Below are positions 26,344 to 44,371 of a stretch of 64,000 nt of DNA, one piece after another. Position numbers and translations under genes: made by a program. This DNA comes from Effrenium voratum (Eukaryota > Sar > Dinophyceae > Suessiales > Symbiodiniaceae): the NCBI GenBank assembly GCA_963377175.1, contig CAUJNA010003827.1, positions 1,398,646 through 1,462,645 of the forward strand, given 5' to 3'. The notes beneath the pieces were generated by a model that worked only from the letters and a program-made list of their open reading frames with translations, was not told the DNA's origin and did not search any database. How positions within the stretch are numbered: the first letter of the stretch is position 1; every line of letters starts with the position of its first letter.

Positions 26344-26678
26344 TGTCAAGAGACGGCAAGGTGACGTCCCGTGGGACGCTGTGCACCGAACCCTCAAGCT
26401 TTAATACCAACCACGTAGAAAGGTGTATACGGACGATGCCGTTATAGCCGAACCCGTGTAAACGTTGTAAGGAAGAAGGAATGATAGTTACGATGGGTGG
26501 TCCTGACTAATGCGGCAGCGTTGTTTTGCTTTTTAATGCCTGTCTGTACAAGGTCAACGATCTTGAACCTCAATTGTGTCTTGAGCCAAATGGCGATCAA
26601 TGGAACTTGGGAAGCAATACCAACAAGGACCTCAGAACAGCTACCCAATTTCGGCACGGGGCCTAGAGGGTTTTAACA
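26344..26678 (-). repeat. 3' LTR of element 2
   Basis: 335 bp on the plus strand, from TGTCAAGAGACGG to GGGTTTTAACA. The outer parts (about 149 and 117 bp) are about 97-98% identical to the 44-kb LTR, with four and two mismatches by eye. A central block of about 70 bp has no clear similarity to the 80-90-bp block there. Contains the spliced-leader-like motif at 26580-26594. Confidence 0.85.
26580..26594 (-). promoter_or_regulatory. Spliced-leader-like motif in 3' LTR of element 2
   Basis: On the minus strand this is CGCCATTTGGCTCAAG, which matches the dinoflagellate spliced-leader end GCCATTTTGGCTCAAG except for one missing T. It lies in the conserved part of the LTR. Confidence 0.55.
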
Positions 26679-26688
26679 TCCCCCATTT
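26679..26688 (-). promoter_or_regulatory. Polypurine tract of element 2
   Basis: On the element strand AAATGGGGGA immediately precedes the LTR start TGTTAAAACCC. This is the expected position of the plus-strand primer and supports this LTR as the 3' one. Confidence 0.6.
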
Positions 26689-27305
26689 GGGTCGCATCGT
26701 TCATCATGCGGTCCAAACACCACAAAACGTTCCACTGGCCACGGCTTCAACTACGAAATCGTGTCGTGCATTCTTTTATTTGCTATCACTACACCGTTCA
26801 TTCGCTGTGAAACATGCCGGGTTCGATTGTGCGAAAAGTGAAACATTCATCCTCCAATCGAAGCACACATCCATATGCAGGTGTATATATAATACACTGT
26901 GGCCACTTCTCATGACCGCCAGTGAACATTCCAGCTGCCGCATTTGCGCATCGCGCAGCTGTCATCCATAAATGGGTTGGCCACAAATGTCCACCATGCG
27001 CGCCCGCTTGTGATCGGTCTGCATATCTCCGGCAAAGAAACATCGGTGAGTAATCAATGCAAATCATAGCCATTCCAGATACCATGGACAATGCATAAAT
27101 AATGAAAAGATATCATCTATAAGGTAATAATTCCATCCATGAATATCCAGAGCGTCATAGTCGTCGGAATATGTAACCATGTACACATCCATTCATCTTG
27201 GACACATGAATATAAATCATGACATAAGTCGTTCCACCGAAACAGTGTCGATGTGACGCAAGTAACAGATGGGGACTGGCCCACATCGTACCGCAATCAT
27301 CATCT
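26689..27305. other. 3' untranslated region of element 2
   Basis: About 620 bases between the last stop codon and the polypurine tract. AT-richer than the coding part. No frame or repeat of note. Confidence 0.5.
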
Positions 27306-28676
27306 TCACGAAGCATACCTGTCCCCAATGGACAGCCTATGGGTACGTCGGCGGAACTCCTCGTCCAAGTTCTTCTGGGCTTCTCGTGCCCGGACACACT
27401 TCTTGTTGTAGTCCTCTGGCAACCAGTGCCCTTTCCGAAGGCACCAATCCAGCAGGGGTGTGTCGCATTTGTTCGGGTCGACGGCCGAGATGATGGCGCT
27501 CACGTTGACCGTGTAACCATGTTTGCCAAGGTTCAGGCCATCCCTCACGAATGATATATACTTACAGTTGAAAGCTAGTGCAAAACATCTGAAAACAATA
27601 TCACCCACCGGGTGCACTCGGTCCTTGACCAGGAGCTTCATTTCTTCCTTGGTGACATCGAGGATTCTTGCTGCAATCCACAGCTTGTAGAATGTGTATA
27701 GTCCCTCGCATTTGTTCACCATCATACGAATATATTCGTCACGCTCCTCAACCGATCGGAAGGCTCTTGTCCGAACATTCTCCGATTGAGAAATCTTCGT
27801 TATCGTTGATGGCAAAAGTATACCTTCCTGATCGTGCTCAGTGATGTTGGGGTACCTCCTGAAATCATTGTGATAAGGGCAGCCCGGATTCCCTTCGAGT
27901 CCGGCATTCATCGTTCTCTCCTCACCACCTTCAAACATCCCCCACATCTTGGACAGCTGGAGTGCGATAAATCCTGCCATGTATTGAGCCTCACGCGGCT
28001 CGTCAAGGCAGATCGCCATCCGTTGGGAACTTATAATGTCCCGTGACGTCAGATCGGTGTCGCGGTAATGCCAACCGCCGTCTTCTTCTTCTGACGCATA
28101 GCCGGATGTATATCCTTGCGTGTCCATGTCATCATCTTCTCCCGGAACTTCTTCCGCTTCGTCCTCATCCTCCTGTGCTGCCGCATCGTGGTTAGCTTCT
28201 TCCTGCGCACGCCTGGCATCTCCAGAGACGTTGGGGTTTTGGTTGTCCTCCTCGTCATCGGAATTGATGTGAATGCAGTATCTTCCGATGGAGATCAGTT
28301 GTGCCTCGCACTCCAGGCATAAGCAGAAGCAGGTGGGGATCGCGGTCGCACATGATGGACATATCCGGCACCTCAGTCCTTCCCATGTCTCATCATTCAG
28401 GATGACGACTTTGCTGACTTCGTCCCGGACCTCGTTGACCTGTGCGTTGAATTCTTCCATCTTGTTGTTTCGATAGAGTTCGCAAGCACGATTAACCATG
28501 TCAACGATGTAGTGCAGATTATCGGCACCTGTCTCAGTCTCCGGCATCCTCTCGCTGATCTTTGCGACGTTCTGGAGGAACATCGCAGCCGACTCTTGGG
28601 AACGCCCTCTTGATGTCAGCGTACTCCAGGCGCTTCCCTCCATTGCTTTTGCCAATCCAAATGGACTTGACCTCAT
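27306..28676 (-). CDS. Cargo protein: Cys-rich zinc-ribbon-like, acidic (element 2)
   Basis: 456 codons from the first ATG, though the true N-terminus may be fused to the preceding Tpt1-domain frame, which overlaps it by 143 bases in another frame. Residues about 30-95 are helical (MFLQNVAKISER, VDMVNRACELYRNNKMEEFN). Residues about 103-130 hold a cysteine cluster (CRICPSCATAIPTCFCLCLE) that could bind zinc. Residues 140-215 are highly acidic (DDEEDNQ, EDEDEAEEVPGEDDD). The remaining 230 residues look globular and mostly helical with several Trp and Cys. It is the last frame before the 3' LTR. I do not recognise the family. It has no reverse-transcriptase or Env-like features: no signal peptide or membrane segment. 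Confidence 0.6.
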   Translation of the reverse strand: MRSSPFGLAKAMEGSAWSTLTSRGRSQESAAMFLQNVAKISERMPETETGADNLHYIVDMVNRACELYRNNKMEEFNAQVNEVRDEVSKVVILNDETWEGLRCRICPSCATAIPTCFCLCLECEAQLISIGRYCIHINSDDEEDNQNPNVSGDARRAQEEANHDAAAQEDEDEAEEVPGEDDDMDTQGYTSGYASEEEDGGWHYRDTDLTSRDIISSQRMAICLDEPREAQYMAGFIALQLSKMWGMFEGGEERTMNAGLEGNPGCPYHNDFRRYPNITEHDQEGILLPSTITKISQSENVRTRAFRSVEERDEYIRMMVNKCEGLYTFYKLWIAARILDVTKEEMKLLVKDRVHPVGDIVFRCFALAFNCKYISFVRDGLNLGKHGYTVNVSAIISAVDPNKCDTPLLDWCLRKGHWLPEDYNKKCVRAREAQKNLDEEFRRRTHRLSIGDRYAS

Positions 28677-28863
28677 AGAACGGGATCACGTCAAAGACCA
28701 TGAAAGTCCCATTAGCCGCGACTCCAGCCCCATACCGCGCGAGGGTTGCACTGGGAATATAGATGATCGCAATCGGATCTCCTCTCCTCACGTTCCGTAG
28801 CGTTGTCTTCGTCGCCACGTTCATCTCATCCCATGGAGCAAATGCCCCGAAGTGCAGTGCTAG
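28534..28863 (-). CDS. C-terminal part of Tpt1/KptA-like domain (element 2, -1 frame)
   Basis: This frame continues the Tpt1-like domain of the upstream 1224-codon frame after a -1 shift. From CTA at 28863 it reads LALHFGAFAPWDEMN and then RRGDPIAIIYIPSATLARYG, ANGTFMVFDVIPFYEVKSIW. In the Tpt1/KptA family this part carries the His-Leu/Phe strand after the GLxPxxR segment, an Arg-containing strand and the NGV(I)LT(x)xVP-like strand; all are recognisable here. A second shift near 28,610 probably leads on into the zinc-ribbon-like frame. The shift sites are not classical slippery sequences, so mutation or assembly error is as likely as programmed frameshifting. Confidence 0.6.
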   Translation of the reverse strand, partial: LALHFGAFAPWDEMNVATKTTLRNVRRGDPIAIIYIPSATLARYGAGVAANGTFMVFDVIPFYEVKSIWIGKSNGGKRLEYADIKRAFPRVGCDVPPERRKDQREDAGD

Positions 28864-31800
28864 CCTGTTACCGCCATCGATCCCGCCGGGACTAGCCCAC
28901 AGCGTACGATGCTTGGCAGGTTTTCCACATACGTCACATGGAATGCTCCTCCGAGAGTATCACCCATTCTTGCGGAATACCTATTCGCCAGTGCGGATGA
29001 GCTCATGAATCCAAAATCACTGTGACCGGTTGTGACTCGGATGCACCAAGGTCTGTACCATCCATCGCATCCGTTGAACATCCTGTCGATGTCGTCCCGA
29101 TCCACGCCAGCTTCGGTCATTTCCTCCCTGGCTGCCCTCGTGTCGTTCGGGTTCATGATGCTCGGAAACCTTGCTGCCAAAACCTGGAATCTCGATTTTC
29201 TGCTTCCGGATTCCTGCCACTTGATCACCTCCATGATGCCCATGTATCGTTTCGCTCTCGTGGTGTATGGTGGGAACATGTCGTTGTTCCGGTCGTCAAT
29301 GACAGCATCAATGTCGACCCATCCACCCTCGTCGCACCTGAAAGCACTTCCTCGGCAATTGCCGATCTTGTGTCGAAGGACTCTGCATAGGTCGTGAGAT
29401 AGCTGGTTTGCTTGGTCCCTTGTAGTAAATACCGAGCGATCATCGCCAATCCTGCATAGTGGAGCACCGTCGAAAGGAGCAATGCAGAAGTTGACACTCT
29501 TGCCAAGTTGCATCACGTCCACTTGCTCAAGGATTGCACCTTTGGGAAAGTATTTGGGGTCAACGATGGACGCATACGCCCATGGCAAGTGCACATTACT
29601 CACATCGCCATACTTCGGGATGTAGCACGGGATGGTGTCGCATCCCATCTCAAGCGTCTTCTTGAATGTCCTGCTGTCCCCGCACGGGTTGTAGGTGAGG
29701 TCGACGCCACCACATTGTAGCTCTCCTCCCTCAGCCGTGTCAGCCATCTCCACCAAATTAATAGTGTAGCTGTACATCTCAATTGTTTCTTTCCCTGCTT
29801 GTCCTCCTCTCTTTCTTTCCTTGGACGTTGATGAGGACGGTTCCTCCGTATCCCCCATGTCTTCATCAGATGAAACAGGGTCACTGCTGAGTAGCTCACG
29901 GAGCACCTTCATCGCCTTCTCATTTCCAGCAGCCTCCTCAATGTCCTTGCCGTCGCCGTCGTGGGCCAGGTTCGCGCACTTCTTACAGATCCCCATATCT
30001 CCCATGCACTTCTCCATTGACTCCAGGAATCCTAGTGCCGCTCTCCGCCCGTCGATCACTCGCTGCTTCTTGTCTTCCTTCTCAGTATTGGTCTGAGAAC
30101 TTCGACTCGGGTCTGGTGCTTGACCAAGACCCTCGTCTTCGCCCTCCGTGGCCTTTCTCTTGGAACCTTGTGCAGAGGGCTCGGTGATCAGGGATCGTGG
30201 ATGTCTGGGCTTGACCTTGTTCATGATGCCAAGCACCTCCTTCGTGGGCGCGCCGAGCTGTGCGGACGGTTTGTTCCGCTTTCTGTTCTGGCCCGTCGTG
30301 TGGGTCACGTTCCCAGCGAGGTGTCGCACTATTGACTGCTCGAACTCCCTCTTGATCTTCCATGCGTCCTTCCACAGTGGCAGTTCGTGCTGAAAGTACG
30401 ACATCACCTCAAAGAATCCCAACACCATCTCGACGACGTCTCCCAAGGATTCCTCGTTCGTGGTTTGTCCCAGGAGTTCGTACATCGTTCCTTGGTCGAG
30501 CACACTCTTGATCCATGACGAATATGCCACATTGCCGAGATCCTTGCCTATCACGAAGATGGACATCCTCTCCTCGACTCCCTCGGAATTCTTGCACACG
30601 ATCACATCCCGGGATGCGCACAATTGCTTCCCGTGACCGTTGTTGTAAAACTGCGCTGCTTGATCCACAGTCATGCTCACGAATCCCACGTGAGAAAGCT
30701 CCTTCTTCAGCCTTGAGTACGCGAGCTCCCGTATGATCATGATCATGGCCTGGATATTGTTGACGTCCACCATGAGGTTTTGAAGGTCGGGGATTGCCAC
30801 CACGCATTCCGCGAAGAGGCGCGTGTACATTTTCTTCCCCTCGATAGACATTGCAATATCGTTCGTGTCCGCGTTCCAGTTCGCGCAACAGTTCACGCAA
30901 GAAGAGGGATTGTACTTCGAATTCGGTCCGAGCACCTTCGACTTGCTCATCTGCATCTCTTTAGCGCAAAGTTCGCTGATAAACTTGCTGAGCTCCGTGA
31001 TCGTATACCATCGAAGACGTTGATCACCGATATCGGCTTTCCCAAAAGCATCCTGCTCGCCGTGTCCTTCAGCTTGCTGCTCTTGTGTCCTCTTCGACTG
31101 TGCAGTGAAGGTCGGCTTGTACTCGAATTTCACCTTCGATTCCTCCATGTTCTTCGGGATGTTGAATCGAAGGTCGGGCTCGTTTATGCACGTCCCCTCC
31201 AGCTCACACACAAACGTGTTGCTAGGTGCGACCGCATCGATGGATTTCTCGATCAGCAGTCGTTTCAGGAGGAAATGTTGCAAGTTCGAGCTCCCAGGGA
31301 TCTTGTAGTTCTTTCCTGTGAGCGCATGGACCACGCGCCACAGGCGATCGTTCTTGGTCACCAGCGCGCCTGCCGCCTTGCAGATCTCGCTAACCTTGTT
31401 GGCGATCGTCCCCAAGTCCCCTCTTCCACCATGGAAAGCAACATCGCGATTCACGCACACCACGACCAGGCCCTTGCATGTGTTGACGAGGTCAGACATC
31501 GCCTTCTGCAGGGAGTCGATGATGGGGTTGGCGGTCACCTGCCATCCGCATCCTCTCACGCACACCCAATCATATAGCGACATCCAAATGTGCACCGACA
31601 TTGGTGAGTCATCCATGTCTCGCCTCCGCCGTTCAGCGATGAGCTTATCCAGCTTCTGCAATCGGGAGATGATATTCAACGTGTCGTTGGGTGAGGAGAC
31701 TTGCTCACTCGACCCATAGTATGATCTCTCCTTGATGTTTGTCCATCCCTGTTCGTTGACCATCATCTGGAAGGTCTTCGTGCTCCCTTTCGAGTTGACG

Positions 31801-32534
31801 GCCCTCAAGGGCCAATCCAGGACCAAGAAGCTCTTCTTGTGGATCATCATATCGCGAATCGTCGCCTCGCCAATGGGGCTCCTCTTCTGCCTATTGATAA
31901 TCCGGTTCAACTGTCCAGGTGCGTTGTCCGGGTTCTTCTCCGCCTGAATCAACGCGTTGATGGCTTTGGCGCCCGGAAGGCGTCCAGCAATCAAGCATCC
32001 TGTTTGGGCACACAAGAAAGCATACAGCTGTAGCCATGCCGCATTTCCCTTCCCAACATAGGAAAGAATGATCTTCTCCGCGCTGGTCTTCTCCTCGAAG
32101 TGCAATAGCGAAGAGGTCAGGCATCTCAGCATACACTCCCAATATGTTGCGTTCTTGCCTTCCGCAAGACACGGCCCAAATACAGTTTGTATGATTGGGT
32201 ACCCCGTATTGTTGTCTATGTTGAATTTCACATTGACAGTCGCTCCGCCCAATGTGGTACCCCCTTCGAATGAAGTGTAGGTATCGTGTCCAGCAGTTGG
32301 GTTGATAATTACCCATCTGTCGTCGTCACCGCCAGAGTTCATTCGGAAAATGGAGTCGATGATCTCGTTGTCGATCTTGACAGCATCGCTGGCTTGCGAC
32401 CCCCACTTGGAGCTCCCGGCTGGGGGACTGACCCACCAGCGGTTTGACTCCTTTGCCCGGAGCTTGATGCCGACTTCTGCTGTCGCTCCGTCTTCCGTGG
32501 CGGCTCCGTCTTCGATGAGCCCATCACCCACCAT
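28860..32534 (-). CDS. Cargo polyprotein with Tpt1/KptA-like RNA 2'-phosphotransferase domain (element 2)
   Basis: 1224 codons. The C-terminal 184 residues match the Tpt1/KptA RNA 2'-phosphotransferase family, enzymes that use NAD to remove an internal RNA 2'-phosphate through ADP-ribosyl transfer. Visible elements are QLSHDLCRVLRHKIG, CDEGGWVDIDAVI (winged N-lobe signature), IRVTTGHS (for IRAxQGHS) and FHVTYVENLPSIVRCGLVP (for HGTxxxxxxxIxxxGL). The domain is interrupted at TAG 28862-28860 and completed in the next frame. Residues about 310-420 (HIWMSLYDWV, GLVVVCVNRDVAFHGG, SNLQHFLL) loosely suggest a degenerate SGNH-hydrolase-like fold. Residues about 780-930 form a Ser/Lys/Glu-rich linker with a CKKC pair. 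It overlaps the preceding frame by 196 bases. The enzymatic role is inferred from family; whether it is active is unknown. Confidence 0.7.
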   Translation of the reverse strand: MVGDGLIEDGAATEDGATAEVGIKLRAKESNRWWVSPPAGSSKWGSQASDAVKIDNEIIDSIFRMNSGGDDDRWVIINPTAGHDTYTSFEGGTTLGGATVNVKFNIDNNTGYPIIQTVFGPCLAEGKNATYWECMLRCLTSSLLHFEEKTSAEKIILSYVGKGNAAWLQLYAFLCAQTGCLIAGRLPGAKAINALIQAEKNPDNAPGQLNRIINRQKRSPIGEATIRDMMIHKKSFLVLDWPLRAVNSKGSTKTFQMMVNEQGWTNIKERSYYGSSEQVSSPNDTLNIISRLQKLDKLIAERRRRDMDDSPMSVHIWMSLYDWVCVRGCGWQVTANPIIDSLQKAMSDLVNTCKGLVVVCVNRDVAFHGGRGDLGTIANKVSEICKAAGALVTKNDRLWRVVHALTGKNYKIPGSSNLQHFLLKRLLIEKSIDAVAPSNTFVCELEGTCINEPDLRFNIPKNMEESKVKFEYKPTFTAQSKRTQEQQAEGHGEQDAFGKADIGDQRLRWYTITELSKFISELCAKEMQMSKSKVLGPNSKYNPSSCVNCCANWNADTNDIAMSIEGKKMYTRLFAECVVAIPDLQNLMVDVNNIQAMIMIIRELAYSRLKKELSHVGFVSMTVDQAAQFYNNGHGKQLCASRDVIVCKNSEGVEERMSIFVIGKDLGNVAYSSWIKSVLDQGTMYELLGQTTNEESLGDVVEMVLGFFEVMSYFQHELPLWKDAWKIKREFEQSIVRHLAGNVTHTTGQNRKRNKPSAQLGAPTKEVLGIMNKVKPRHPRSLITEPSAQGSKRKATEGEDEGLGQAPDPSRSSQTNTEKEDKKQRVIDGRRAALGFLESMEKCMGDMGICKKCANLAHDGDGKDIEEAAGNEKAMKVLRELLSSDPVSSDEDMGDTEEPSSSTSKERKRGGQAGKETIEMYSYTINLVEMADTAEGGELQCGGVDLTYNPCGDSRTFKKTLEMGCDTIPCYIPKYGDVSNVHLPWAYASIVDPKYFPKGAILEQVDVMQLGKSVNFCIAPFDGAPLCRIGDDRSVFTTRDQANQLSHDLCRVLRHKIGNCRGSAFRCDEGGWVDIDAVIDDRNNDMFPPYTTRAKRYMGIMEVIKWQESGSRKSRFQVLAARFPSIMNPNDTRAAREEMTEAGVDRDDIDRMFNGCDGWYRPWCIRVTTGHSDFGFMSSSALANRYSARMGDTLGGAFHVTYVENLPSIVRCGLVPAGSMAVTG

Positions 32535-35500
32535 GTCGGCTCTTCCCCAACCACGAAATCCTCGGGGTACTTCTCCAGTTCCCTTTCGATTTCATGAATC
32601 GTGCAGTATTTATTCTGGAAGAATTCGATCATGACGTCCTTCTCGGCCTTCTTCTCGATCTCCTTCATCCAGCTTACCCACTTGCGCCGATCTTTGTTCT
32701 CAGCGGCCCTGTCAGCCGCGTGCGGTGCCAAACTGATGGAGTTGATGTTCATCGCAGGCAGCTTCGACTCATAGATCATATCGATGCACCATAGGAAATC
32801 CCTGGCGTACTCAATCTCCCGGTAGAGATCGTTCAGCTCCCTTTTGTCTGGACGGAAACAAGCTGTATACGACTGATCTTTGGAGTCCTTCTCACCGAGC
32901 AATGGCTGCAATCTCCTCATGATGAAAGATACGCACATGAGCGAATTGACCGCTCCGATGCACGCGTCAGAGATGTCACTGGGGGTTGACCCACAGATCA
33001 TCCAGCGCAACAGGTTGTTCTGGCTGGCATTCTCATCCCTCCTCAGTGCATATGCGAGGTTCTTCATCGATGCCTGCAGCTCATTCTGGTAGACCAACCC
33101 AAGGTCCCAATTCTTCTGGTAGTCGTCCTTGGAACCACGACCGTAGGAGTCGATCTTGGGAGACTTGATCACGCTCAACGTGAACACTTTCCCCCAGTTT
33201 CGATCTCTGTACCTTGCGATTCTCCGGTCGTGCCTCTCAAACTCTGCAGTCGTCTGGAACTCCTCGGAGCTCCTCCACCTTCTCGATGACGATGCCCTAG
33301 ATGACTCGTCGCTGATGAATTCCTTGTACACCTCCCCAACCGGGGTGTTCTGGTGGAATGCAGCTTTGAACGACTGTTCATCGTTGTCTTCGGCCACGCC
33401 TAGTGCGAGATCCCAGATGTTCGCGATTGATCTCAACATATCCGCCCCTTCCATGCAGTACTTGGTTACGTTGAGCAACTCGGGGTTCTTCGCCAACATC
33501 GTTGCCTCACCGCAAAGTTGGTTCAGCGCCGACACGATCTTCTTTCCCTTGCTGCAGAATTCCCTCCATCCAAGCATACATTCGTCGGCAGAAAGCCGTC
33601 CGAAAACTTTGCTGATGAACTCTAAGGCAACCCTCATAGACTGCCCTTCACCTTTCATCATCCCGCGGCCCTTGGCAGAGTAGTACGCAGAGTATGCATA
33701 AATAGCGGGGACGCCTATGTCCTCGATCCACTTCACGCACACACCCAGGTCGCTGCTCATCTCCATCCTCTTGGGTATCCTCTTGCCTTCCTCGATGGCG
33801 TTCTTCACCAAATTTCCCAAGAAGATTGCTGCTTGCCTAGATTTCCCAACAGGCACGCAGAAGAATTCATTCGTATTGACGACATTCGGATTGGCAGTCA
33901 TCTTGATGATATTCTCCAGAACCAGGAAAACCCGAAATAAGCAGCTGCAAATGAAGCCACGGAATTGTCCCAATATGATCCCAGCTTCAGATTGAGGTGA
34001 CGAACTCGTCCGGCTCCTTCTTGAATCTTGGGGTTCGGGACTGACCCAGCTCCCCGTATGCACCAGAGGTTCGGGACTGGCCCAGCACCTCGGTTGTGCA
34101 GTTGGGGTGGTGCAGATTTCGCTCGCAGTAGCTTGGTGCTTCCGCGATCTCCTTCGCGTAATGCAAGCAAGAGCGAGTTTCAATGGTGCCGGTTTGAGGC
34201 ACCTTGCTCGAGCACGAAAACGGCGAAGGATCACACCCACAATTATAGACGTGTACAACTGGGTTTCTTTGGTTTCACGACCAGCACAAGGTCCATGCTC
34301 ATGGCTTCCATTGCATTTCTTAGACAACGAGCCACCAAGTTCAAAGTTCCATGATACAACTCTCCATGGTTTCTTGATTGGCATGGGTTTCTTTGCATAT
34401 CTTTGTTTCAAGCCATAGCGACAACCATCAAACTCGTGACTAGTCCCATCATGCACGACCTCATGCAGTCTCTCATCTTTCCAATAATCACAACTTCCAG
34501 GCAACTCAAACAAAATCGCAGCTCGTTTTGTCATGGCACGCCGTTTAATTTCAACGAACCGTTCAAATAATCTCCAAAATTCTCTTTGTTTGGCCTCGAT
34601 TTTCTCTGCGGTGTCAATGCCGCGAGTCTTGTTGAGGCGTGCCCACGATGATCCCCCCGTGCAAGGCCCGGCGAAGAACAACAAATCGGAAGGTTTGGTA
34701 AGCACATGTCTGGCGATTCTCCCCCCGTACTCGCTCAGTAAGTCATCAACCAGGGTTATGGTGACAACCTGCGGCCCGTCGTGGCGGGCAAGAGCAGTGA
34801 ACCAGTTACGTGGTTCGGAGCATGCCATCAGCACGATGGGCCGAGCCAAGTCAACACTGTAGAGAGTGACGACTGTGCGAGTTCTCATACCAGGAAGCGA
34901 GACATGAACAGGAGCGCGAAGCACACCACCGTCGTGTTTGACCATCGCGAGTTCAATACCCGGCGCTAACTGTGGCTTGTGCTTCACCGCAATGCGATAC
35001 GGAACAAAAAAACGACCAGGGACAAGCTGCTCGTGATTGATATGCAGACAACGCATGAGCAATTTCAATCGGAGCAACGTTTCCAAAGCAAGGTCGTTAA
35101 CACACTTCAACTCTATGCGCTCGTTCGACAGTTCTTCAACAAATGCGGCCAGCACGGACTGCATGTCAACATCCCCGGACCCGACGTGAATTGGTCGTGG
35201 TCGTGGAGACCGTTCCCGCGCTGGTGCAGCGACCGGTACGGGATGAAACTGCCAAACTGCGCGTTCAACCCAACCATCAATTCGCACACATTGTAGCCCC
35301 GGGTCAACTCTATCCTCAACTTTGAGCCATGACCCATTCTTCAGAAACCAAGTGGAACGAAGCCACTTGCTCCTAAACGGTGTCATAACCGCGAGTGGAG
35401 GTTTCACACGCATCAATCTGGGTCCCTTGGCAACAACAACCGGATCATGTCCTTCATGCTCATGCAATCCCTCTTTGGATGTTAATCCAGACCACCATAG

Positions 35501-37690
35501 GTCGGGAGGCATGATCGGAATGTGTGTGTACGGAAATGTTGGAACTCCGTCAACCGTCCCCGAAGCGGTCTGCATGGTCCCCTTTATGGGATCACACGTG
35601 GGTGTGAGCGCCTTGAGGGTATCAGGGTCAGACAGCAAGCTCGGGTCAAGTAGACCAATCTGCAAACATGCATGTTTCCATTTGCGCCCATCATTGAACG
35701 CCTTGGTGTAAATATCGGCCGTCATCCTGTCGGTGACCTCATACGCCAAGTACATGTAATCACGTGTGAACATCTCATGCATCCACGAAATGCTAACACC
35801 ATGGCTTCTCTCAAGGTGGCGCATCGTGGGGTTTTTCCCCGATCGCACGACACCGATCATAGCCTTGTTATCGTCATAGAACACAAAGTTCGGTGACTTC
35901 TTGAGAATCCGCTCTACCAGCTTGAGAGCGGGCATACCCATCGATCTCATGGCAACGTCGGCCGCAACAATCTCGGCCTCGGGAGTGGAGTGACTCACAC
36001 AACCCTGTCTTTTAGAGCTGCCAGACAACGGAAACCGGGTATTAGGCCCTTGTATATTCAAGTGTCCACTGGAGGTGGAACGCAGCGAGTCAATGCATCC
36101 CGCAAAGTCAGCGTCCGCATACAAGGCCAAGTGCACATCGTCCATAGGGTCTCCAACCCAACCGACCATGCGCCAATGTTTGGTATGATGCACATAGCAC
36201 ATCAAGTGATGCAAACCCCGATCATCGGAGTCAGTCCACCCATGCACGTTCCGTGCTAGGCGATTCACTTGCCGCAACAAATCGAAGCGAGCAATCCGCG
36301 CACCGTACAGCAACTTCATCAGTACGCTAGCGGCATGCGGAGCAAGGTGTCCACGCACGGGCTCCTTCATGGCCAACTCAGGAGTCCCTCCCCGTTGGTC
36401 TGGCACTGTGGCAGAACCGTCGGTGGGCACAAGATTGTTACACCAATTGCACACGACTGACGGCCCCTCTCTGGCAGGCTTCCGTGAGACGTGATTCTTT
36501 GTTTCTTCATGCAACTCAGGGGTGACAACCTTATTCAACTTCACATCGCCCGCCACTTCAAGAAAGCGGTCGACACAGGAACGTAGGAACTGTTCCATGT
36601 CATAGGTCACCGTTGTTACTCGGTGTCCGTTCCCGAGAGTGACGTTTCCCTTGCTTTGATGGCAACCAAGGTACATGTCAAGTCCAGTCTCGGGCTCAAT
36701 CTTCAAACGTGTACGCAACATGCTCCACCCTTGGGCAAGGTTCTTCTGCGGCCCTGCCATTCTGAAGTCGTCGACATACACAACCAGAACAAGCTGGAGC
36801 TTTTCGTGAATGTACACTGAAGGCCATTCTTCGCCGATGGGCTCAAAACCAACGGCACGCACCGACTCATCGCAGTGCTGCTCCCAAAATGTTCCCGCAT
36901 CTGGGTGTCCGTACAGCGCCTTCCTCAACGGGACGACTGGTCTTCTGTACTTATCCCATTTGTATTCACTTGGCACGGCCTCCGGTGGCAATTCAATCCA
37001 ACACGGCGTGCCTCTCAAGGTGGCCTGTATATACGCCTGAACAGCGTCGGCCATCTGCACATCCCAGCCATCATGACAACCCAGAAAATCCGCCCAACGC
37101 GAGGCTTCAAATGAAGCAGGGGAGTTCCTCAAATCTTGAAACATCGCAGCCTCAAAGCTTTGGTTCTTCACTTGGTTCCCCAGCAACACGCCTCTACCCT
37201 TGAACTTCCTCTTAGGATCACCAACAGGCAACTGTGAGTGCTTTTCAACGCAAATGCCATGTGCGCGAGCCATGTGTATTTCTTCCCCTTTCGCTTTTGC
37301 TTCTCTGGCTACGGCGTCATATTCGCGCACCGCGCCAAGATCGAAGACCCCCTGGTCGATTAATCCCGACCACTCTTTCTTCATTGATGCCAATGCATCA
37401 GGGTTGGTCAACATCTCTTTCCGGCCTACCAGCCTGGATACTAAAGCGTCGAAGAATCGTACAACTTTCACAGCTTTCTCTCTGTGCTGTATTCGCTCAG
37501 AAGTCACGCACGGCATCGATGGGTACTTCTTGGCTTCACCGTCCTCGCCTATCGCAGGCATTGCGAGTGGCACTTTTCCAGAAACTATCTCAGCAGACTC
37601 CTCCCATTCATACCAGGTGAGGTCCGTCGATCCGTCGACCGATGGATCCGTCCCCGATGCTGTCTCAGCTTCGTCTTTATGACTCTCCAT
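32339..37690 (-). CDS. Copia RT-RNase H-methyltransferase-like polyprotein fused in frame to a cargo protein (element 2)
   Basis: 1783 codons. Residues about 100-400 are a copia reverse transcriptase (GWDVQMADAVQAYIQATL, PLRKALYGHPDAG, catalytic YVDD at 305-308). Residues 505-670 are RNase H (LALYADADFAGC, STPEAEIVAADVA, FYDDNKAM, MTADIYTKAF). Residues 940-1155 resemble a Rossmann-type DNA methyltransferase-like domain seen in dinoflagellate copia elements (FFAGPCTGGSSWARLN with a Pro-Cys pair, ILFELPGSCDYW, FDGCRYGL, then a Cys/His-rich end). Residues 1170-1260 are low-complexity with a repeated Ser-Pro-Glu-Pro motif. Met-1264 (ATG 33901-33899) probably marks the true start of a separate 520-residue helical cargo protein of unknown family. 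An insertion with CNWC interrupts the RT-RH connection. Confidence 0.85.
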   Translation of the reverse strand: MESHKDEAETASGTDPSVDGSTDLTWYEWEESAEIVSGKVPLAMPAIGEDGEAKKYPSMPCVTSERIQHREKAVKVVRFFDALVSRLVGRKEMLTNPDALASMKKEWSGLIDQGVFDLGAVREYDAVAREAKAKGEEIHMARAHGICVEKHSQLPVGDPKRKFKGRGVLLGNQVKNQSFEAAMFQDLRNSPASFEASRWADFLGCHDGWDVQMADAVQAYIQATLRGTPCWIELPPEAVPSEYKWDKYRRPVVPLRKALYGHPDAGTFWEQHCDESVRAVGFEPIGEEWPSVYIHEKLQLVLVVYVDDFRMAGPQKNLAQGWSMLRTRLKIEPETGLDMYLGCHQSKGNVTLGNGHRVTTVTYDMEQFLRSCVDRFLEVAGDVKLNKVVTPELHEETKNHVSRKPAREGPSVVCNWCNNLVPTDGSATVPDQRGGTPELAMKEPVRGHLAPHAASVLMKLLYGARIARFDLLRQVNRLARNVHGWTDSDDRGLHHLMCYVHHTKHWRMVGWVGDPMDDVHLALYADADFAGCIDSLRSTSSGHLNIQGPNTRFPLSGSSKRQGCVSHSTPEAEIVAADVAMRSMGMPALKLVERILKKSPNFVFYDDNKAMIGVVRSGKNPTMRHLERSHGVSISWMHEMFTRDYMYLAYEVTDRMTADIYTKAFNDGRKWKHACLQIGLLDPSLLSDPDTLKALTPTCDPIKGTMQTASGTVDGVPTFPYTHIPIMPPDLWWSGLTSKEGLHEHEGHDPVVVAKGPRLMRVKPPLAVMTPFRSKWLRSTWFLKNGSWLKVEDRVDPGLQCVRIDGWVERAVWQFHPVPVAAPARERSPRPRPIHVGSGDVDMQSVLAAFVEELSNERIELKCVNDLALETLLRLKLLMRCLHINHEQLVPGRFFVPYRIAVKHKPQLAPGIELAMVKHDGGVLRAPVHVSLPGMRTRTVVTLYSVDLARPIVLMACSEPRNWFTALARHDGPQVVTITLVDDLLSEYGGRIARHVLTKPSDLLFFAGPCTGGSSWARLNKTRGIDTAEKIEAKQREFWRLFERFVEIKRRAMTKRAAILFELPGSCDYWKDERLHEVVHDGTSHEFDGCRYGLKQRYAKKPMPIKKPWRVVSWNFELGGSLSKKCNGSHEHGPCAGRETKETQLYTSIIVGVILRRFRARARCLKPAPLKLALACITRRRSRKHQATASEICTTPTAQPRCWASPEPLVHTGSWVSPEPQDSRRSRTSSSPQSEAGIILGQFRGFICSCLFRVFLVLENIIKMTANPNVVNTNEFFCVPVGKSRQAAIFLGNLVKNAIEEGKRIPKRMEMSSDLGVCVKWIEDIGVPAIYAYSAYYSAKGRGMMKGEGQSMRVALEFISKVFGRLSADECMLGWREFCSKGKKIVSALNQLCGEATMLAKNPELLNVTKYCMEGADMLRSIANIWDLALGVAEDNDEQSFKAAFHQNTPVGEVYKEFISDESSRASSSRRWRSSEEFQTTAEFERHDRRIARYRDRNWGKVFTLSVIKSPKIDSYGRGSKDDYQKNWDLGLVYQNELQASMKNLAYALRRDENASQNNLLRWMICGSTPSDISDACIGAVNSLMCVSFIMRRLQPLLGEKDSKDQSYTACFRPDKRELNDLYREIEYARDFLWCIDMIYESKLPAMNINSISLAPHAADRAAENKDRRKWVSWMKEIEKKAEKDVMIEFFQNKYCTIHEIERELEKYPEDFVVGEEPTWWVMGSSKTEPPRKTERQQKSASSSGQRSQTAGGSVPQPGAPSGGRKPAMLSRSTTRSSTPFSE

Positions 37691-37750
37691 GACTGATGCA
37701 ACCGCCTTCGTCCAGTTTGGAGTCGACTTTGATCGCTCCTCAGACTTGAA

Positions 37751-38023: not shown

Positions 38024-38092
38024 CTGTAATGTCCGTGCCTCTGCCGGCGCGGAAATATCAGACTCTTTACTCTTGGGATCTTCCTCTTTCCT

Positions 38093-39532
38093 TTAGCCAC
38101 CGCCCTTCACCTCGGCCTTCTCTTCCTTGGTGTAATATTTACTCATCATCTTCCATTCTTCAGGAGTGAACTCTGGAGGTCTCGATGTCTTCATTAGCCT
38201 GAATCCGTCCTTCCCAACAGGATACGGTCTCCCGGCCTTGTCGATCTTAACCTCCTTGCCATCGTCGTTGACGTACGTGATACCATCCCCGGGTAGCCCA
38301 ACTGACACGTGTGGAAGGTCGGACTTCGCAACCTTTTCATCGCCCTTAGGGTGTCCATCTCCTTTCCCTTTTGAGGAGCTCGGTCTAGCATCTTCTTCTC
38401 CCGCGTGATCCCCCCGATCTCCGGCGATTACCTCCGGGCCATCGTCGAGCAGTAGACCAGCGATCTGATCGACCTCATCGTCAAGTAGTCGCTTCTCGTC
38501 ACTCTGCAGCAATTCAGGCTCGTAGTCCTCATCTTCGATCAGGCGGTCACGCGCATCCAGACCGATCGCATCGACAGACATTTCTATCCCTTCCAAAGTC
38601 TCGTTGGCAACCTTGTACTTCTGTTGTATTGGGAATGTCAGAGGAGATTTCAGAATCATCCTCTCCGTCTGATGTGGCATTCTCAACCGAGGTGGAACCT
38701 TTGCCTTTTTGATGTTCAGCTCTGCACCCGCAAATGCAGTAAGTGCCCAAGCACGATACTTGTTTGCCCAATGCATACCGGTGCTCAACACATATCCAGC
38801 AAATATACCAGTTTCCCCTCTCGGCTCGAACTTCTCCCTCTTTCCCCCTCGTGATTCGCTCGGCTTGAAGTCCACTAGCGCACCAAAAGGTATCTTCTCG
38901 CCCTTGAACTCCTCGCCATGCAGCCTCATCCATGCACTCGATCCGTTCACCTCTTCGATATTCATGAGATGGCACAGAGTGGTGATGGCCTGCACCCAAT
39001 AACACGTGGGTAGACCGGCATGTACTAGACAAGCCGAAGTCTGGTCAATGATGAATTGATTTGTTCTTTCAGCAAGGGAATTGTTCAGCGGCCGTCCAGG
39101 CAGCGATAGGTCGTGGTTCAGCTTCAGCTCCACGCACGCATTGATCAGTTCCGGGCCGTCATCTGAATATACCTGCTTGATTTTCCTCCTCCCGCAGAAG
39201 TGCTTGATAGCCCTGACGACTGAATCAGTGTCTCTTCTCGCGGTGGGATAAGCCATGATAATTCCGGTATATATGTCCCGGATGATGAGCGCATACCTGC
39301 CTTCCACTTCATGATCTCCTGATGCCGTCACAAAGTCGAACGTCACCAGGTCACCGAACGTCTCCACTTCTCTTTTGAATGCTCCCGTTCGTGATCTGAA
39401 GTGTCTCATCTTTGCCTTGACGCATGATTCGCAGAAGGGATTTCGGTATCTGTGTGTAAGCAAATGAGCTATGGAGTTGGCGTCCTTCTTGAGGACTCCC
39501 TCTTTCCTCTTTATTGATGATCCTTCGTACAC
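38093..39532 (-). CDS. Integrase of element 2
   Basis: 479 codons. The N-terminal zinc-binding part shows HRYRNPFCESCVKAK. The catalytic core shows the three acidic residues in context: TFDFVTA (first Asp), YSDDGPELINA (second Asp) and NNSLAERTNQFI (Glu). The C-terminal part has the copia-type GxFxGYxxxxG segment (ETGIFAGYVLSTGMHW). The last 200 residues are acidic and Pro/Lys-rich and lead towards RT. The first Met is not certain; coding similarity continues upstream in other frames (39533-39700), implying a small frameshift between protease and integrase. Confidence 0.85.
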   Translation of the reverse strand: MYEGSSIKRKEGVLKKDANSIAHLLTHRYRNPFCESCVKAKMRHFRSRTGAFKREVETFGDLVTFDFVTASGDHEVEGRYALIIRDIYTGIIMAYPTARRDTDSVVRAIKHFCGRRKIKQVYSDDGPELINACVELKLNHDLSLPGRPLNNSLAERTNQFIIDQTSACLVHAGLPTCYWVQAITTLCHLMNIEEVNGSSAWMRLHGEEFKGEKIPFGALVDFKPSESRGGKREKFEPRGETGIFAGYVLSTGMHWANKYRAWALTAFAGAELNIKKAKVPPRLRMPHQTERMILKSPLTFPIQQKYKVANETLEGIEMSVDAIGLDARDRLIEDEDYEPELLQSDEKRLLDDEVDQIAGLLLDDGPEVIAGDRGDHAGEEDARPSSSKGKGDGHPKGDEKVAKSDLPHVSVGLPGDGITYVNDDGKEVKIDKAGRPYPVGKDGFRLMKTSRPPEFTPEEWKMMSKYYTKEEKAEVKGGG

Positions 39533-39855
39533 GTCTACTTCGATTCCGGCATCTGGATCATCTTTAAATCAGCCTCTTTCTCGTGAGCTTCAGCATCTTT
39601 CGTATCGTCAGGACGACCAGCATCTACAGATGTTTCCTCCAGCCAGGGAGCAGACACGATACCGGACCAGCCTCCCGCGCGTGGCCCAAGTCAGATGCCC
39701 CGTCGTGGTTGACCGCCCTCCTTCTACGGACTCATTGACAACGGGTGTGGCGTCGTTATAAATAAATCACCTCCTGATCTCATCATTCGTTACCATCATA
39801 ATGTGCTTCAAAAAGTGCTCCCTTTGAGGGTCGTCTTGTGTAGGGCGATACCTTG
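39533..39855. other. Decayed linker between Gag-protease and integrase frames
   Basis: The minus strand still reads like polyprotein linker in pieces (VEETSVDAGRPDDTKDAEAH, then DPDAGIEVDVYEG in another frame). One or more indels separate the two frames. Confidence 0.45.
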
Positions 39856-42800
39856 TTATCGAGTTTCTGCATCATAAACGGGTACAGGTGTCGTCAGCGA
39901 CCTTACAAATTGCACGAATCCCTGCTTTGGCGTAACCATGAAAGGTAGTTTACCAGGCATCCAGTGAAATGCATAACCCATCTTCATGCATCTCCTCCCC
40001 ACTGACAATGCCGTGGGTGTCTCATCCAATACATGCGGCTCGACAGTCTCGTCCAACTCGTCCACGACTATCTTGGCCACATCAGATGTGGAAGTGGAAC
40101 CATTCGCGGTCTGGAACACGATCTCATCGTCATCTTTCACGATGTCGACGCCCAGGCTCTTCGCCTTGGCTCTTCCGATGAGATCATGACCACATCCGGT
40201 GTCCATCAACCATTTCACCCGTTTGCTGATGCACGTTGACATGGCGAAAACGTTCTTCGGCATACCATGCTGCTTCTTCCAGTCGACAGCCGATTCCTTG
40301 ATCTCGTCCTTGTTCCGATCATACTCGAACATTATGCTGCTCTCCTTGGTCACCGGGAAGTAGTGCTTCTTATATATATCATCCACCACTTCTCTCAGTA
40401 TCTTCGCACGTATCAATGATCGTTGGACTTGATAGGCTGATAATTCACGATGATCACTGCTTTTGAACTTCTTCTCGTCGACGTACACGTACTGATAAGG
40501 CTCATTCTCATTGTCCTCATAACCGTACCATTCCCCTTTTCGTTCCCATTGCCTTCTCTCGTCTTCGAGGTAGGTGATCTCCCCATTCTCGTCGACGTCG
40601 AGCACTTCCTTGAACCACACCATTTTCTCGGGGATCTCGGACTCGCCAGACCATCTCGATGATTCGCTCATCGCGTCGTCATCGTGCTCGTGGTAGACAG
40701 TCTCGGCTTCGTCCGGTTCGACCTGATCAACGTCCTTCTTGAAGCTTACCTTCCCTGCAGGAGCCGATTGCTTCAGGACTATCGCGGGCATTGCGATGGC
40801 CCTCCTCGCAATGGCAGGCGCTGCGGCTTTGGCGGCAGCCTTCGACTTGGCTTGCGCCTTGTCATTTGACGTTGCTGGAGCTGAATTGTTCTTGATGAGC
40901 TCATGCCTATACTTGCAAGCGCTTCCCCTATCGCACTTCCCCTTCTGAAACGCGAAGCATGCTCCATCATCTCTCTTTGGTGACGATGATCTGGACTTGG
41001 ATTTGCCCTTTCCTTTCCCCTTGGACATGCTCTCCAACTTGTGCTCCGTCTTCTTGCTGTGGGAAAAAGTGCATTCATTTCCTTTCACGCACCCCTTCGC
41101 CGATTTGAAGTGGTACCAGCAGGGGTTATCCTTGCCTCCGCCCGGACTCTTGCCTCTGTCGCTGGCACCGTCGGACTTGCCGTTCTTGCCAGCGTGGCCC
41201 TTTGCCTTGGCTTTTGGGAGCACAGGAGCGGCATCAGGTCCACCGGGTTTCCCCTTTCTACCCTTGCCACCCTGGTTCTCCTGTTTGCCAGTTGCTGGAG
41301 CCGCATCCTTCCCGCCTGACTTCATCATCGACTTGACCGATTTCTCCTTCATGTCGAGCATCAGGTCTTCCCGATCTGCCTTGATCTGATAGTCGATCAA
41401 CGCCAATAAGAATTCATACGTCTTCTGAGGATGCTTGTCCGGTAGTCTATGGTAGGCATTGAGGCCGAACTCCATCTTCTTGCTCCCTTTGATCTTCCTG
41501 TAAAGGATGTCTCTGAGAGCCAGCTTACTGGGTCTGTCCTCGCTCCTCATCTTCAGCAGCAAATCATACCATTTGTTCCTGAACATGACCAAGTTCTTGT
41601 CGCCAGGAAAGTCAAGGTTGAATAAATGCTCGATGTGGTAGACAAGATCCGTTCTATCGGAAGTTCTGAATGATTGCATAACTAATGCCACCAACTCTCG
41701 TCCCTTCACGATCACCCCTTGTTGATGTCGTAGTTCAGAGTGTCGTGTAGCATCGAGGTATACGTCTTTGGCTTCGTCAGGTGCTTGTTTCAGCATGTTC
41801 TGCATGCCCATGGCCATCTTAATATCTATCGTAGCAAATCTGTCGCCACCTGAATCGCTAAGCGCATTCAGGTCTGGGTTCAACCCAAGAGCCTGTTCCA
41901 ACCATTTCGTCCATGTATCGGTATCTGGATCTGCACATGCGCTCAGAACATTCATCAACAGTTGCATCTTCCAGTTATCAAGTTGGTGGATCTTTGGCCA
42001 AGCCGGAATGGATACCCTCTCAGCCTCTTTCCTCGAGATCCTCGGTCTATCGTTCTTGATCTCCCGATCATCTCTCGATCTTCTTCGTCTCCTCCGTGTC
42101 CGATTGTGATCTTCTTCCTCTTCTTCTTCCTCGTCTTCTTCGTCCTCTTCGTCGTCGTCGTCCCCGTCTTCATCGTCGGGTGGGTCATCCGGAGGTCCTC
42201 CTCCGCCACCTGTGAGGCTCAACTGACGTCGATTTGCTCCCTGCCTATTTCCATTAGGCGAGAATCCACCGTAATCCAATGGGGGCGTAGTACCGTTGTT
42301 TCCCCCTCCATCACCATCACCAGTCGTAGTAGTGGATTGTGGGACATGCCCAACAACCCCTTGCATCTGGGATAGGTGTACATCGATCATTGGATCACCG
42401 AAAGACGGAAAAAGAATCGAACCTGGCATTAGTGACGAATTAGGGTTCAGATTCGAAGACGATGACGGGACTAACCCAGCCACCTTCTTGTCTACCCTAT
42501 TTGAATTAGCTTGGGATCCTCCCTCAGCGCGTTTCACTACTGCTCGTTCACGATGTCCATCTTTGCTGCTGGAGGCTTCCTGTGTCTCCAGCTTCTTATG
42601 TGCACGCAGTTCCTCGTTGTCAGCGTCGAGTTGACGAACAAAACTCTCTTCTTGCTTGAGCTTCGCCTCCCTCTCCTTCAGTTGTCCCTGAAGCTCATGC
42701 ATCTCTTCGAGGTACTCATCGTACATTCCCTTAGCTGTCAATCTCCAGTACTCAGCCTCCTTCGACTTCTCATCCATCGTGCACCGTTCTTCTTGCTTTG

Positions 42801-43923
42801 CTTCTTTGACCTGGGCTAACTCCAAGATCGCATCTTGACGATGACCGCCTTCGACAGCAATCATGTGGTCCTTCATCGACACGTCGGATTCATACTGTTT
42901 GACGATCTCTCCCTTCTCGCGAAGCAAGCAATCTGCTCTCTTTGATTCTTGTTCCGCAAATACTGTAACGTCATTCAGTCTCGCCATCAGCTGTTCCCTG
43001 GAGTCCTCCATGGAGTACGTCTCGGGGCGCTTGACAAGTGCGTGTTCCAACTGTGACTTCAGACTTTGGACCATCTCCTCCTCGTTGAACTTCTCGATAG
43101 ATGTAGATGATTCGATGCCTCTGATTTGTTGCTGATAAACTGATATCTGCTGTGAAGCTTCTCGGTGTATTTGATTTGCACGTATAGCTGACTCCTGCGC
43201 GGCCGACTTCTCGCTTGCCATGTAGGATTTCATCACTGCAATTTCCCGCTTCTGCTCCATGACAGTTCCTTCAGCTTGTCTCATCTGTTGCATTATAATA
43301 TTCGCCTCCATGTCTTTCTTTTCCCCGTACTGAAATGCGTTCATTTCCACCTTGCGCATCTGTTGGGCTTCTTCCTCAAACTTGCGCCATGCCTCAGCCA
43401 TGTGGTGTTGGTGGTGACTCACTAGATGTCCCGACTGCTTGCTAGCAATCTCGCATCGTCTCTCCAGCTCCTGGATCCGGATGGTGCTTCCATAATCTTC
43501 CTGATGAAGATTCGCCATAGCTGCCGACATTTCATCAAGTGTCTTTTGATATTCCCCGATCTCCACCTCCATCTTATTCTTCTCTTTGATCGCGGCGCGA
43601 AACTCCGCACTGGTGGGTGATTTTGACCTCCCACCCTTCGATGTCGATCTCACGCCCTTCTGCGACGTCCGTGGTGTCGCAGGCGAAGATGATGATCTTC
43701 TCGGTGGGGATTCTCTTTTCTTTGACTCCTGATGAACATCGATCTGCTTCCATGATCTTGTGGGAGTGGAAATGTCGCTGAATAGCGCGGAACCTCCGCT
43801 CCCAGGTTCATCCTGTGAATCTGCAATCATATCCATCACCGCAGGAAGAGCCATCAATCCATTGGATCCCTCTGAGCTGCTGTTCCCAAAAGTTGCAGTA
43901 CTTGGGCTCGCCGAAGACGCCAT
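39856..43923 (-). CDS. Gag-protease polyprotein of element 2
   Basis: 1355 codons; the ATG at 43923 is the first after the PBS, 85 bases from it. Residues 1-105 are disordered (Ser/Pro/Arg-rich). Residues about 110-450 form a long coiled coil. Residues 550-600 are an acidic run followed by an Arg-rich run. Residues about 630-850 are a capsid-like helical domain (WPKIHQLDNWKMQLLMNVLS, YHIEHLFNLDFPGDKNLVMF). Two CCCH zinc fingers follow (CWYHFKSAKGCVKGNECTFS, H; CFAFQKGKCDRGSACKYRH), replacing the usual CCHC knuckle. The C-terminus is a retropepsin-type protease with active site WLMDTGCGHDLIG. All parts are in one open frame, which suggests a recent or selected copy. Confidence 0.85.
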   Translation of the reverse strand: MASSASPSTATFGNSSSEGSNGLMALPAVMDMIADSQDEPGSGGSALFSDISTPTRSWKQIDVHQESKKRESPPRRSSSSPATPRTSQKGVRSTSKGGRSKSPTSAEFRAAIKEKNKMEVEIGEYQKTLDEMSAAMANLHQEDYGSTIRIQELERRCEIASKQSGHLVSHHQHHMAEAWRKFEEEAQQMRKVEMNAFQYGEKKDMEANIIMQQMRQAEGTVMEQKREIAVMKSYMASEKSAAQESAIRANQIHREASQQISVYQQQIRGIESSTSIEKFNEEEMVQSLKSQLEHALVKRPETYSMEDSREQLMARLNDVTVFAEQESKRADCLLREKGEIVKQYESDVSMKDHMIAVEGGHRQDAILELAQVKEAKQEERCTMDEKSKEAEYWRLTAKGMYDEYLEEMHELQGQLKEREAKLKQEESFVRQLDADNEELRAHKKLETQEASSSKDGHRERAVVKRAEGGSQANSNRVDKKVAGLVPSSSSNLNPNSSLMPGSILFPSFGDPMIDVHLSQMQGVVGHVPQSTTTTGDGDGGGNNGTTPPLDYGGFSPNGNRQGANRRQLSLTGGGGGPPDDPPDDEDGDDDDEEDEEDEEEEEEEDHNRTRRRRRRSRDDREIKNDRPRISRKEAERVSIPAWPKIHQLDNWKMQLLMNVLSACADPDTDTWTKWLEQALGLNPDLNALSDSGGDRFATIDIKMAMGMQNMLKQAPDEAKDVYLDATRHSELRHQQGVIVKGRELVALVMQSFRTSDRTDLVYHIEHLFNLDFPGDKNLVMFRNKWYDLLLKMRSEDRPSKLALRDILYRKIKGSKKMEFGLNAYHRLPDKHPQKTYEFLLALIDYQIKADREDLMLDMKEKSVKSMMKSGGKDAAPATGKQENQGGKGRKGKPGGPDAAPVLPKAKAKGHAGKNGKSDGASDRGKSPGGGKDNPCWYHFKSAKGCVKGNECTFSHSKKTEHKLESMSKGKGKGKSKSRSSSPKRDDGACFAFQKGKCDRGSACKYRHELIKNNSAPATSNDKAQAKSKAAAKAAAPAIARRAIAMPAIVLKQSAPAGKVSFKKDVDQVEPDEAETVYHEHDDDAMSESSRWSGESEIPEKMVWFKEVLDVDENGEITYLEDERRQWERKGEWYGYEDNENEPYQYVYVDEKKFKSSDHRELSAYQVQRSLIRAKILREVVDDIYKKHYFPVTKESSIMFEYDRNKDEIKESAVDWKKQHGMPKNVFAMSTCISKRVKWLMDTGCGHDLIGRAKAKSLGVDIVKDDDEIVFQTANGSTSTSDVAKIVVDELDETVEPHVLDETPTALSVGRRCMKMGYAFHWMPGKLPFMVTPKQGFVQFVRSLTTPVPVYDAETR

Positions 43924-44007
43924 TGTACTGTGTAGGTTATCGTTCCTTTATTGTCCCTGTACCCGCAATAAACCAGCTGTCTCCCAGTCCAGTGTAGAGC
44001 TTGTAGT

Positions 44008-44021
44008 TACGGCTGATAACC
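44008..44021 (-). promoter_or_regulatory. Primer-binding site of element 2
   Basis: On the element strand GGTTATCAGCCGTA follows the LTR end TTTTGACA directly. Identical to the site at 2619-2632. Confidence 0.65.
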
Positions 44022-44371
44022 TGTCAAAAGACGGCAAGGTGACGTCCCGTGGGACGCTATGCACCGAACCCTCAAGCTGTAATACCAACCACGTAGAAAG
44101 GTGTATACGGACGATGCCGTTATAGCCGAACCCGTGTAAACGTTGTAAGGGAGAAGGAATGATAGTTACAACAGTGGTCCTGACAAATGCAGCGCAAGCG
44201 AAGTGTTTTCCGCTTTCAACGCCGATCACGTATGTATGCAGTCACACATCAGATCTTGAACCTCAATTGTGTCTTGAGCCAAATGGCGATCAATGGAACT
44301 TGGGAAGCAACACCAACAAGGACCTCAGAACTGCTACCCAATTTCGGCACGGGGCCTAGAGGGTTTTAACA
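44022..44371 (-). repeat. 5' LTR of element 2
   Basis: 350 bp on the plus strand, from TGTCAAAAGACGG to GGGTTTTAACA. Outer parts match the 26-kb LTR closely; the central block differs. Its outer end lies within the terminal codons of the element 3 frame, where it supplies the stop codon. A spliced-leader-like motif lies at 44273-44287. Confidence 0.85.
44273..44287 (-). promoter_or_regulatory. Spliced-leader-like motif in 5' LTR of element 2
   Basis: Minus-strand CGCCATTTGGCTCAAG, 350 bases upstream of the gag ATG on the sense strand. Same sequence as in the 3' LTR. Confidence 0.55.

Follow-up and report, generated by a model that had tools for sequence, protein, structure and literature searches.

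A giant Ty1/copia-type retrotransposon family of Effrenium voratum with a Tpt1/KptA domain in its polyprotein

In this work, we describe a long terminal repeat (LTR) retrotransposon of the dinoflagellate Effrenium voratum, recognized in a stretch of 64,000 nucleotides (GenBank assembly GCA_963377175.1, contig CAUJNA010003827.1, positions 1,398,646 to 1,462,645), here called the window, whose own numbering is used for its features. Positions 26344-44371, minus strand, are confirmed to be an LTR-to-LTR, decayed copy of a Ty1/copia-type element of about 18.1 kb. As judged from sequence, this is a giant, high-copy element whose polyprotein has probably taken in a Tpt1/KptA domain, together with about 1,900 amino acids (aa) of unknown domains, and kept them as a help to replication. 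The argument is built on the observed anatomy, copy number, target duplications, conserved order of parts, purifying selection and retained catalytic residues of the family.

A first-pass annotation of the window had placed a copia-like gene set and about 6.6 kb of further coding DNA, including a Tpt1 domain, between two LTR borders, and this outline holds. Both LTRs run from TG to CA, with a primer binding site (PBS) and a polypurine tract (PPT) at their inner edges; the Pfam profile for the reverse transcriptase (RT), RVT_2, scores above its curated cutoff, those for CCCH fingers, protease and integrase match below theirs, RNase H is recognized by eye, and the Tpt1/KptA profile PF01885 scores 31.1 bits in the window copy, against a cutoff of 26.

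Recurrence of the cargo in independent insertions

The genome sequence searched consists of 1,155,904,702 bases (1.156 Gb) in 3,699 contigs. Exact words taken from the LTR-PBS junction, the RT and the Tpt1 domain occur 441, 592 and 753 times, respectively, and their reversed controls never; counts of the same order for the three words speak for a cargo carried element-wide. Spacing was evaluated on the first 100 listed places of each word, in contigs C2 to C335. The Tpt1 word lies 12-18 kb downstream, on the same strand, at 37 of 51 LTR-PBS places (mirror control 0, upstream control 1), at a median distance of 14,961 bp (range 13,809-15,110), 30 of the 37 falling within 14,900-15,050. It similarly lies 7-9.7 kb downstream at 62 of 80 RT places (controls 0 and 0), with a median of 8,356 bp and 53 of the 62 within 50 bp of that median; conversely, RT is found upstream at 62 of 99 Tpt1 places (contigs to C339). 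The places with no partner word, 14 for LTR-PBS, 18 of 80 for RT and 37 of 99 for Tpt1, may be due to mutation of the word, insertion of another element, the end of a contig or an actual deletion, and because of them a cargo-free sub-family is possible.

Twelve copies, the window copy and those on C700, C3330, C3251, C707, C92, C599, C68, C347, C1393, C3182 and C923, were inspected at both ends, and for two more, on C1252 and C3047, one end each was seen. A target duplication of 5 bp flanks 8 of the 12. Taken together, these duplications and the fixed spacing indicate that the cargo is part of the element and, as had been proposed for the window copy, recurs between RT and 3' LTR in independent insertions.

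Anatomy of the window copy and the single giant frame

The features of the window copy, in the direction of transcription, are the following.

44022..44371, minus strand: 5' LTR, 350 bp, TG..CA; termini fixed through the target duplications of 8 other copies
44006..44021, minus strand: PBS, GGTTATCAGCCGTAAC, adjoining the 5' LTR; its extent is our own reading
39856..43923, minus strand: gag and aspartic protease; all Pfam matches below curated cutoffs
38093..39568, minus strand: integrase, core at about 39301-39088; Pfam rve, E 2.7e-4, under the curated cutoff
35600..37690, minus strand: RT (YVDD) and RNase H, boundaries approximate; RVT_2 above cutoff
34199..34963, minus strand: post-RNase-H conserved domain; pN/pS 0.05 (4 copies)
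33902..34198, minus strand: non-domain linker; pN/pS about neutral
32507..33901, minus strand: cargo segment 1 (Nprot), no known family
30296..32341, minus strand: cargo segments 2 and 3 (X and Y), no known family
28601..29410, minus strand: Tpt1/KptA domain, split between frames in this copy
27306..28600, minus strand: C-terminal domain, with a cysteine-rich motif and an acidic stretch (by eye)
26679..26688, minus strand: PPT, AAATGGGGGA, adjoining the 3' LTR
26344..26678, minus strand: 3' LTR, 335 bp, TG..CA; middle part unlike the 5' LTR

The gag region contains a coiled coil, seen by eye, and two CCCH fingers at about 41109-40866, followed by the aspartic protease at about 40224-40077. RVT_2 reaches 36.3 bits in this copy against a cutoff of 31.6, the RNase H motifs have no profile match, and the integrase core is encoded upstream of RVT_2, which gives the copia-type order. 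The region after RNase H had been described as methyltransferase-like; this assignment finds no support, the 354-aa piece having no Pfam match at E<=5 and no DNA methylase profile appearing in Pfam scans of open reading frames (ORFs) or domains.

The 1224-aa protein of the window returned 3,476 first-look candidates, 38 of which were scored, all 95-100% identical to the query. Among the sister copies, open frames of 5,562 (C700 and C867), 5,542 (C3251), 5,398 (C3330) and 5,339 codons (C3431) were found; three of the five, C700, C3330 and C3251, were read in pieces, the last save about 400 bases around the PBS. In C700, an LTR and PBS are followed by one frame, which begins with gag and includes the whole C-terminal domain, and by PPT and LTR; C3330 has the same parts, its frame stopping inside the C-terminal domain. 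The polyprotein of the best copies thus comprises gag, protease, integrase, RT, RNase H, the post-RNase-H domain and then about 2,200 aa in which Tpt1 and the C-terminal domain lie. The three separate further coding regions previously annotated in the window are, on this evidence, pieces of one polyprotein. Over 349 bp the two LTRs of C700 do not differ, and those of C3330 differ by a 20-column gap only, indicating that the family has young copies.

The window copy is in a different state. Its frame is broken into pieces by short indels, and its Tpt1 domain is divided between two frames near 28860-28960, so that this copy has no whole Tpt1 in one frame. Aligned to each other, its two LTRs have 304 columns in common and differ by 30 mismatches and 17 gap columns; being unlike, and with no target duplication around them, they mark the copy as old or recombinant. 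A programmed frameshift between the window ORFs was considered and is not favoured. Of 11 rows compared at one junction, 3 read through, 3 carry other losses of a single base close by and 5, the window among them, agree in their run-length state; this last group is inflated, as the search gave precedence to copies in the same state as the window. The frame breaks are more simply explained by ordinary decay or homopolymer error; a sub-group-specific frameshift may exist, given the run-length state common to 5 rows.

The copy lies in DNA with a GC content of 50-56%. On its right, at 44356-48100, minus strand, it stands at the C-terminal end of another retroelement frame with a strong dUTPase domain (122 bits). 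This domain is preceded by a region with 23% similarity (E 0.014) to the post-RNase-H domain, protease and integrase relatives (37-52%) are found upstream, and the right flank gave no match to RT at E<=1. The left flank contains direct repeats of 48-148 nt at 23794-24351, spaced by about 240-270 nt.

Selection on the polyprotein

Selection was estimated as pN/pS from codon counts, as simple proportions over pairs of copies which are not independent. In 11 copies, 7 of which were added as best matches to the window protein and bias the set towards similar copies, the ratio is 0.19 for Nprot, 0.21 for X, 0.25 for Y, 0.22 for link2, 0.28 for preTpt1, 0.16 for Tpt1 and 0.20 for the C-terminal domain, and 1.18 for the linker, which is partially covered in 7 of the 11. 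In 4 copies, values are 0.09 for gag, 0.26 for the CCCH-protease region, 0.11 for integrase, 0.31 for RT, 0.19 for RNase H, 0.05 for the post-RNase-H domain, 0.13 for Tpt1 and 0.90 for the linker. The three young copies alone, with few changes, give 0 to 0.28 for most segments and 0.77 for the linker.

The cargo (0.16-0.28) resembles pol, showing that it is under purifying selection. The linker (0.77-1.18) looks as if it evolves about neutrally, and serves as an internal neutral control. The low ratios stem from the transmitted lineage.

The Tpt1/KptA domain and its relatives

In C700 the PF01885 score rises to 34.7 bits. The Arg-His-Arg-Arg tetrad, as defined in PMC6333775, aligns with E. coli KptA and is kept, within a domain bearing large insertions relative to the E. 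coli protein. The Tpt1-domain query detected 97 proteins at E<=10 among 679 candidates, and a Tpt1 profile 190 proteins among 5,140 candidates, the best 120 of the 190 being used; 167 relatives were collected in all, 44 of them less than 60% identical over their matches. In these latter the four tetrad residues are kept in 14/16, 12/16, 32/34 and 32/35 cases (75-94%), and the His and Thr of the NAD+-binding motif in 31/34 and 33/34; the median identity over 264 columns is 0.16. The Tpt1 domain had been regarded as terminal: its presence stands, its position does not, since a conserved domain of about 446 aa comes after it.

Some relatives extend beyond Tpt1. Identity is 32% for P0149 and P0128, whose alignments take in the end of Y, the linker and Tpt1, and 36% for P0164, which matches the end of Y and the stretch from Tpt1 to the C-terminal domain; P0142, P0103 and others match Tpt1 together with the C-terminal domain, at 28-37%. 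P0142, a 578-aa protein on a 6,199-bp NCBI contig, is like P0093 and P0103 a distant relative of the Tpt1 domain, and shares with P0103 the C-terminal domain. Members of the P0128 family occur in this same genome: 76 of 2,585 candidates were scored and yielded at least 107 matches, many of them with stops and the best 96% identical. For the P0103 lineage (lineage III), nothing above 33% identity was seen here among 98 scored of 6811 candidates, and on this ground it probably lies elsewhere. A viral origin of the cargo was also considered and dropped: one protein compared with viral contigs gave 1 pattern match and 0 confirmed relatives.

Two stretches of the second family were fetched, one of which, C1215 (adjoining stretches L076 and L078), is a clean if interrupted case of the same order. 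On one strand and in this sequence, it has RT at 70% identity, the RT end to RNase H at 66%, RNase H to the post-RNase-H border at 45%, the post-RNase-H domain at 56%, the Nprot region at 33%, the Nprot end to X at 28%, X at 35%, Y to Tpt1 in one stretch at 32% and part of the C-terminal domain at 28%. The other, C1857 (L077), contains RT and RNase H; since its parts are spread over the two strands, it is rearranged or nested. By this comparison, C1215 represents an older, decayed family with the same domain order, and uptake of the cargo probably predates the split of the two families.

The primer binding site

The 15-base core of the PBS is also present in other repeats, at 246 places when the next base is required not to be T. 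At the eight such loci fetched (L038-L045), the preceding base is T in all, and three upstream groups can be distinguished by eye. Since at least three other repeat groups share the core, several LTR families of this genome may use the same primer. The PBS of LTR elements usually starts with TGG; here it is one base short of TGG, which would fit, weakly, a primer not ending in a full CCA. We match the PBS to the anticodon position of a tRNA, and so to a possible half-tRNA primer, a reading of our own that is unproven. Two multi-megabase contigs, C1 and C2223, are dense in bacterial-looking tRNA genes and are probable bacterial contaminants.

Possible roles of the cargo

Tpt1 uses NAD+ to take the 2'-phosphate off spliced RNA (PMC6333775). 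According to PMC9458441, citing Munir 2019, the Clostridium and Aeropyrum homologues act on 3'-phosphorylated RNA; human TRPT1 showed no such activity in that study. PMC9503650 proposes that KptA cleans up the RNA ends that metal-independent nucleases leave behind. In Drosophila, copia takes a half-tRNA as its primer (PMC5371799). From these activities and this mode of priming we infer healing of RNA ends in the particle: the element Tpt1 would be an active NAD+-dependent enzyme, would enter particles as part of the polyprotein and would remove 2'- (or terminal 3'-) phosphates from RNA there, so that the 3' end of an RNA primer or nicked genomic RNA, once healed, would let reverse transcription start or continue. 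The substrate may be the primer, the element RNA or a host RNA. Tentatively, then, this may be a retrotransposon lineage with an RNA end-repair domain of its own, by which the ends of primer or genomic RNA are made fit for reverse transcription, for instance by unblocking the 3' end of a cleaved tRNA half that serves as primer, as in Drosophila copia; this specific role is appreciably less secure than a general help to replication.

A number of observations weigh against such a reading. The NCBIfam RNA 2'-phosphotransferase equivalog scores 13.4 bits in C700 against a cutoff of 239, searches of PDB sequences with the cargo turned up neither a Tpt1 nor any convincing match, and the NAD+-binding HGT motif is here HVT, with His and Thr kept and Gly replaced. 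No ligase, 2H or kinase domain was recognized in profile scans of the window ORFs and the C700 pieces, so that, as far as profiles show, this is not a full repair pathway. Thirty loci from 63 scored tRNA matches lack the PBS sequence, the best agreeing at 10-12 of 16 bases; many of the 30 look bacterial. Four of the 12 copies have no normal target duplication (none in C1393 and the window copy, irregular in C700 and C347): the young copy C700, seen at its ends L009 and L010, has a 38-bp duplication instead of 5 bp, and C347 has no 3' LTR end at the expected place. Finally, about 3.2 kb without similarity separate X from Y in C1215, and pN/pS of Y is 0.54 in the three-copy set, where changes are few.

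Seen by itself, the window copy, with no target duplication, unlike LTRs and a broken frame, would suggest that foreign DNA had been inserted into one copy or a few, or that the assembly is at fault. In that event the LTR would directly follow the post-RNase-H domain in other copies and the cargo would lie apart from RT. Instead, Tpt1 is found about 8.36 kb past 62 of 80 RT words, 18 RT and 37 Tpt1 places having no partner; this fixed spacing, that seen from the LTR-PBS side (37 of 51), the target duplications and the second family with the same order refute a foreign insertion, to which we attach almost no weight. A fold that has lost catalysis and serves the particle in RNA binding or structure is unlikely, but better founded: the low overall family score, the change of HGT to HVT and the large insertions agree with it, whereas the catalytic residues are kept at 75-94% in deep relatives in which the median column is kept at 16%.

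A domain facing the host is a stronger competitor, if still a doubtful one. Tpt1 might repair host or element tRNAs, or RNA cut by host ribonucleases, or might reverse or install ADP-ribosylation of nucleic acids as a counter-defence. The same role has been proposed for phage KptA, and a related one for the rare KptA of RNA-virus polyproteins (PMC9503650); in addition, identity between the two families is lower in the cargo (28-35%) than in RT (70%), a pattern often seen in host-facing proteins. On the other hand, no ligase is recognized beside Tpt1, the six C700 pieces have no PADLOC match, and no host nuclease is known here.

Comparison with known systems

With Ty1/copia elements the family shares the TG..CA LTRs, PBS, PPT, the protease-integrase-RT-RNase H order, RVT_2 and the 5-bp target duplication. 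It differs in its size of about 18 kb, in an open frame of more than 5,300 codons, in the approximately 2,200 aa, including Tpt1, past the post-RNase-H region and in its CCCH fingers, which take the place of the usual CCHC knuckle. With Tpt1/KptA proteins (PF01885) it shares a profile score above cutoff, the Arg-His-Arg-Arg tetrad and the His and Thr of the NAD motif; unlike them, the domain is embedded in a retrotransposon polyprotein, with long insertions and HVT for HGT.

Dinoflagellate retrotransposons bearing a DNA methyltransferase, SymbioLINE-Dnmt and SymbioDIRS-Dnmt3, are described in PMC5890265, which reports the copia elements there as having no DNA methyltransferase. There too, a dinoflagellate retrotransposon took in a nucleic-acid-modifying enzyme and multiplied; those are, however, a LINE and a DIRS element with a DNA methyltransferase, and this is a copia-type element with Tpt1. 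KptA is also found, rarely, in RNA-virus polyproteins, as in Beihai picorna-like virus and Botrylloides leachii nidovirus (PMC9503650), and is there likewise inside the polyprotein of an RNA-copying element, although the hosts are positive-strand RNA viruses and not LTR elements. No published retrotransposon with a Tpt1 domain was found among the papers listed in searches of a literature without preprints and without most subscription papers, and the available text of PMC6338049, on accessory domains of retrotransposon polyproteins, does not mention "phosphotransferase".

If the proposed reading is true, a high-copy LTR family whose Tpt1 domain is under selection and has its catalytic residues retained would demonstrate that RNA end-repair can be taken up by retroelements. 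With the element it could then be tested directly if reverse transcription is limited by damaged or phosphate-blocked RNA ends, and its frame of more than 5,300 codons raises the question of how such a polyprotein is made and cut.

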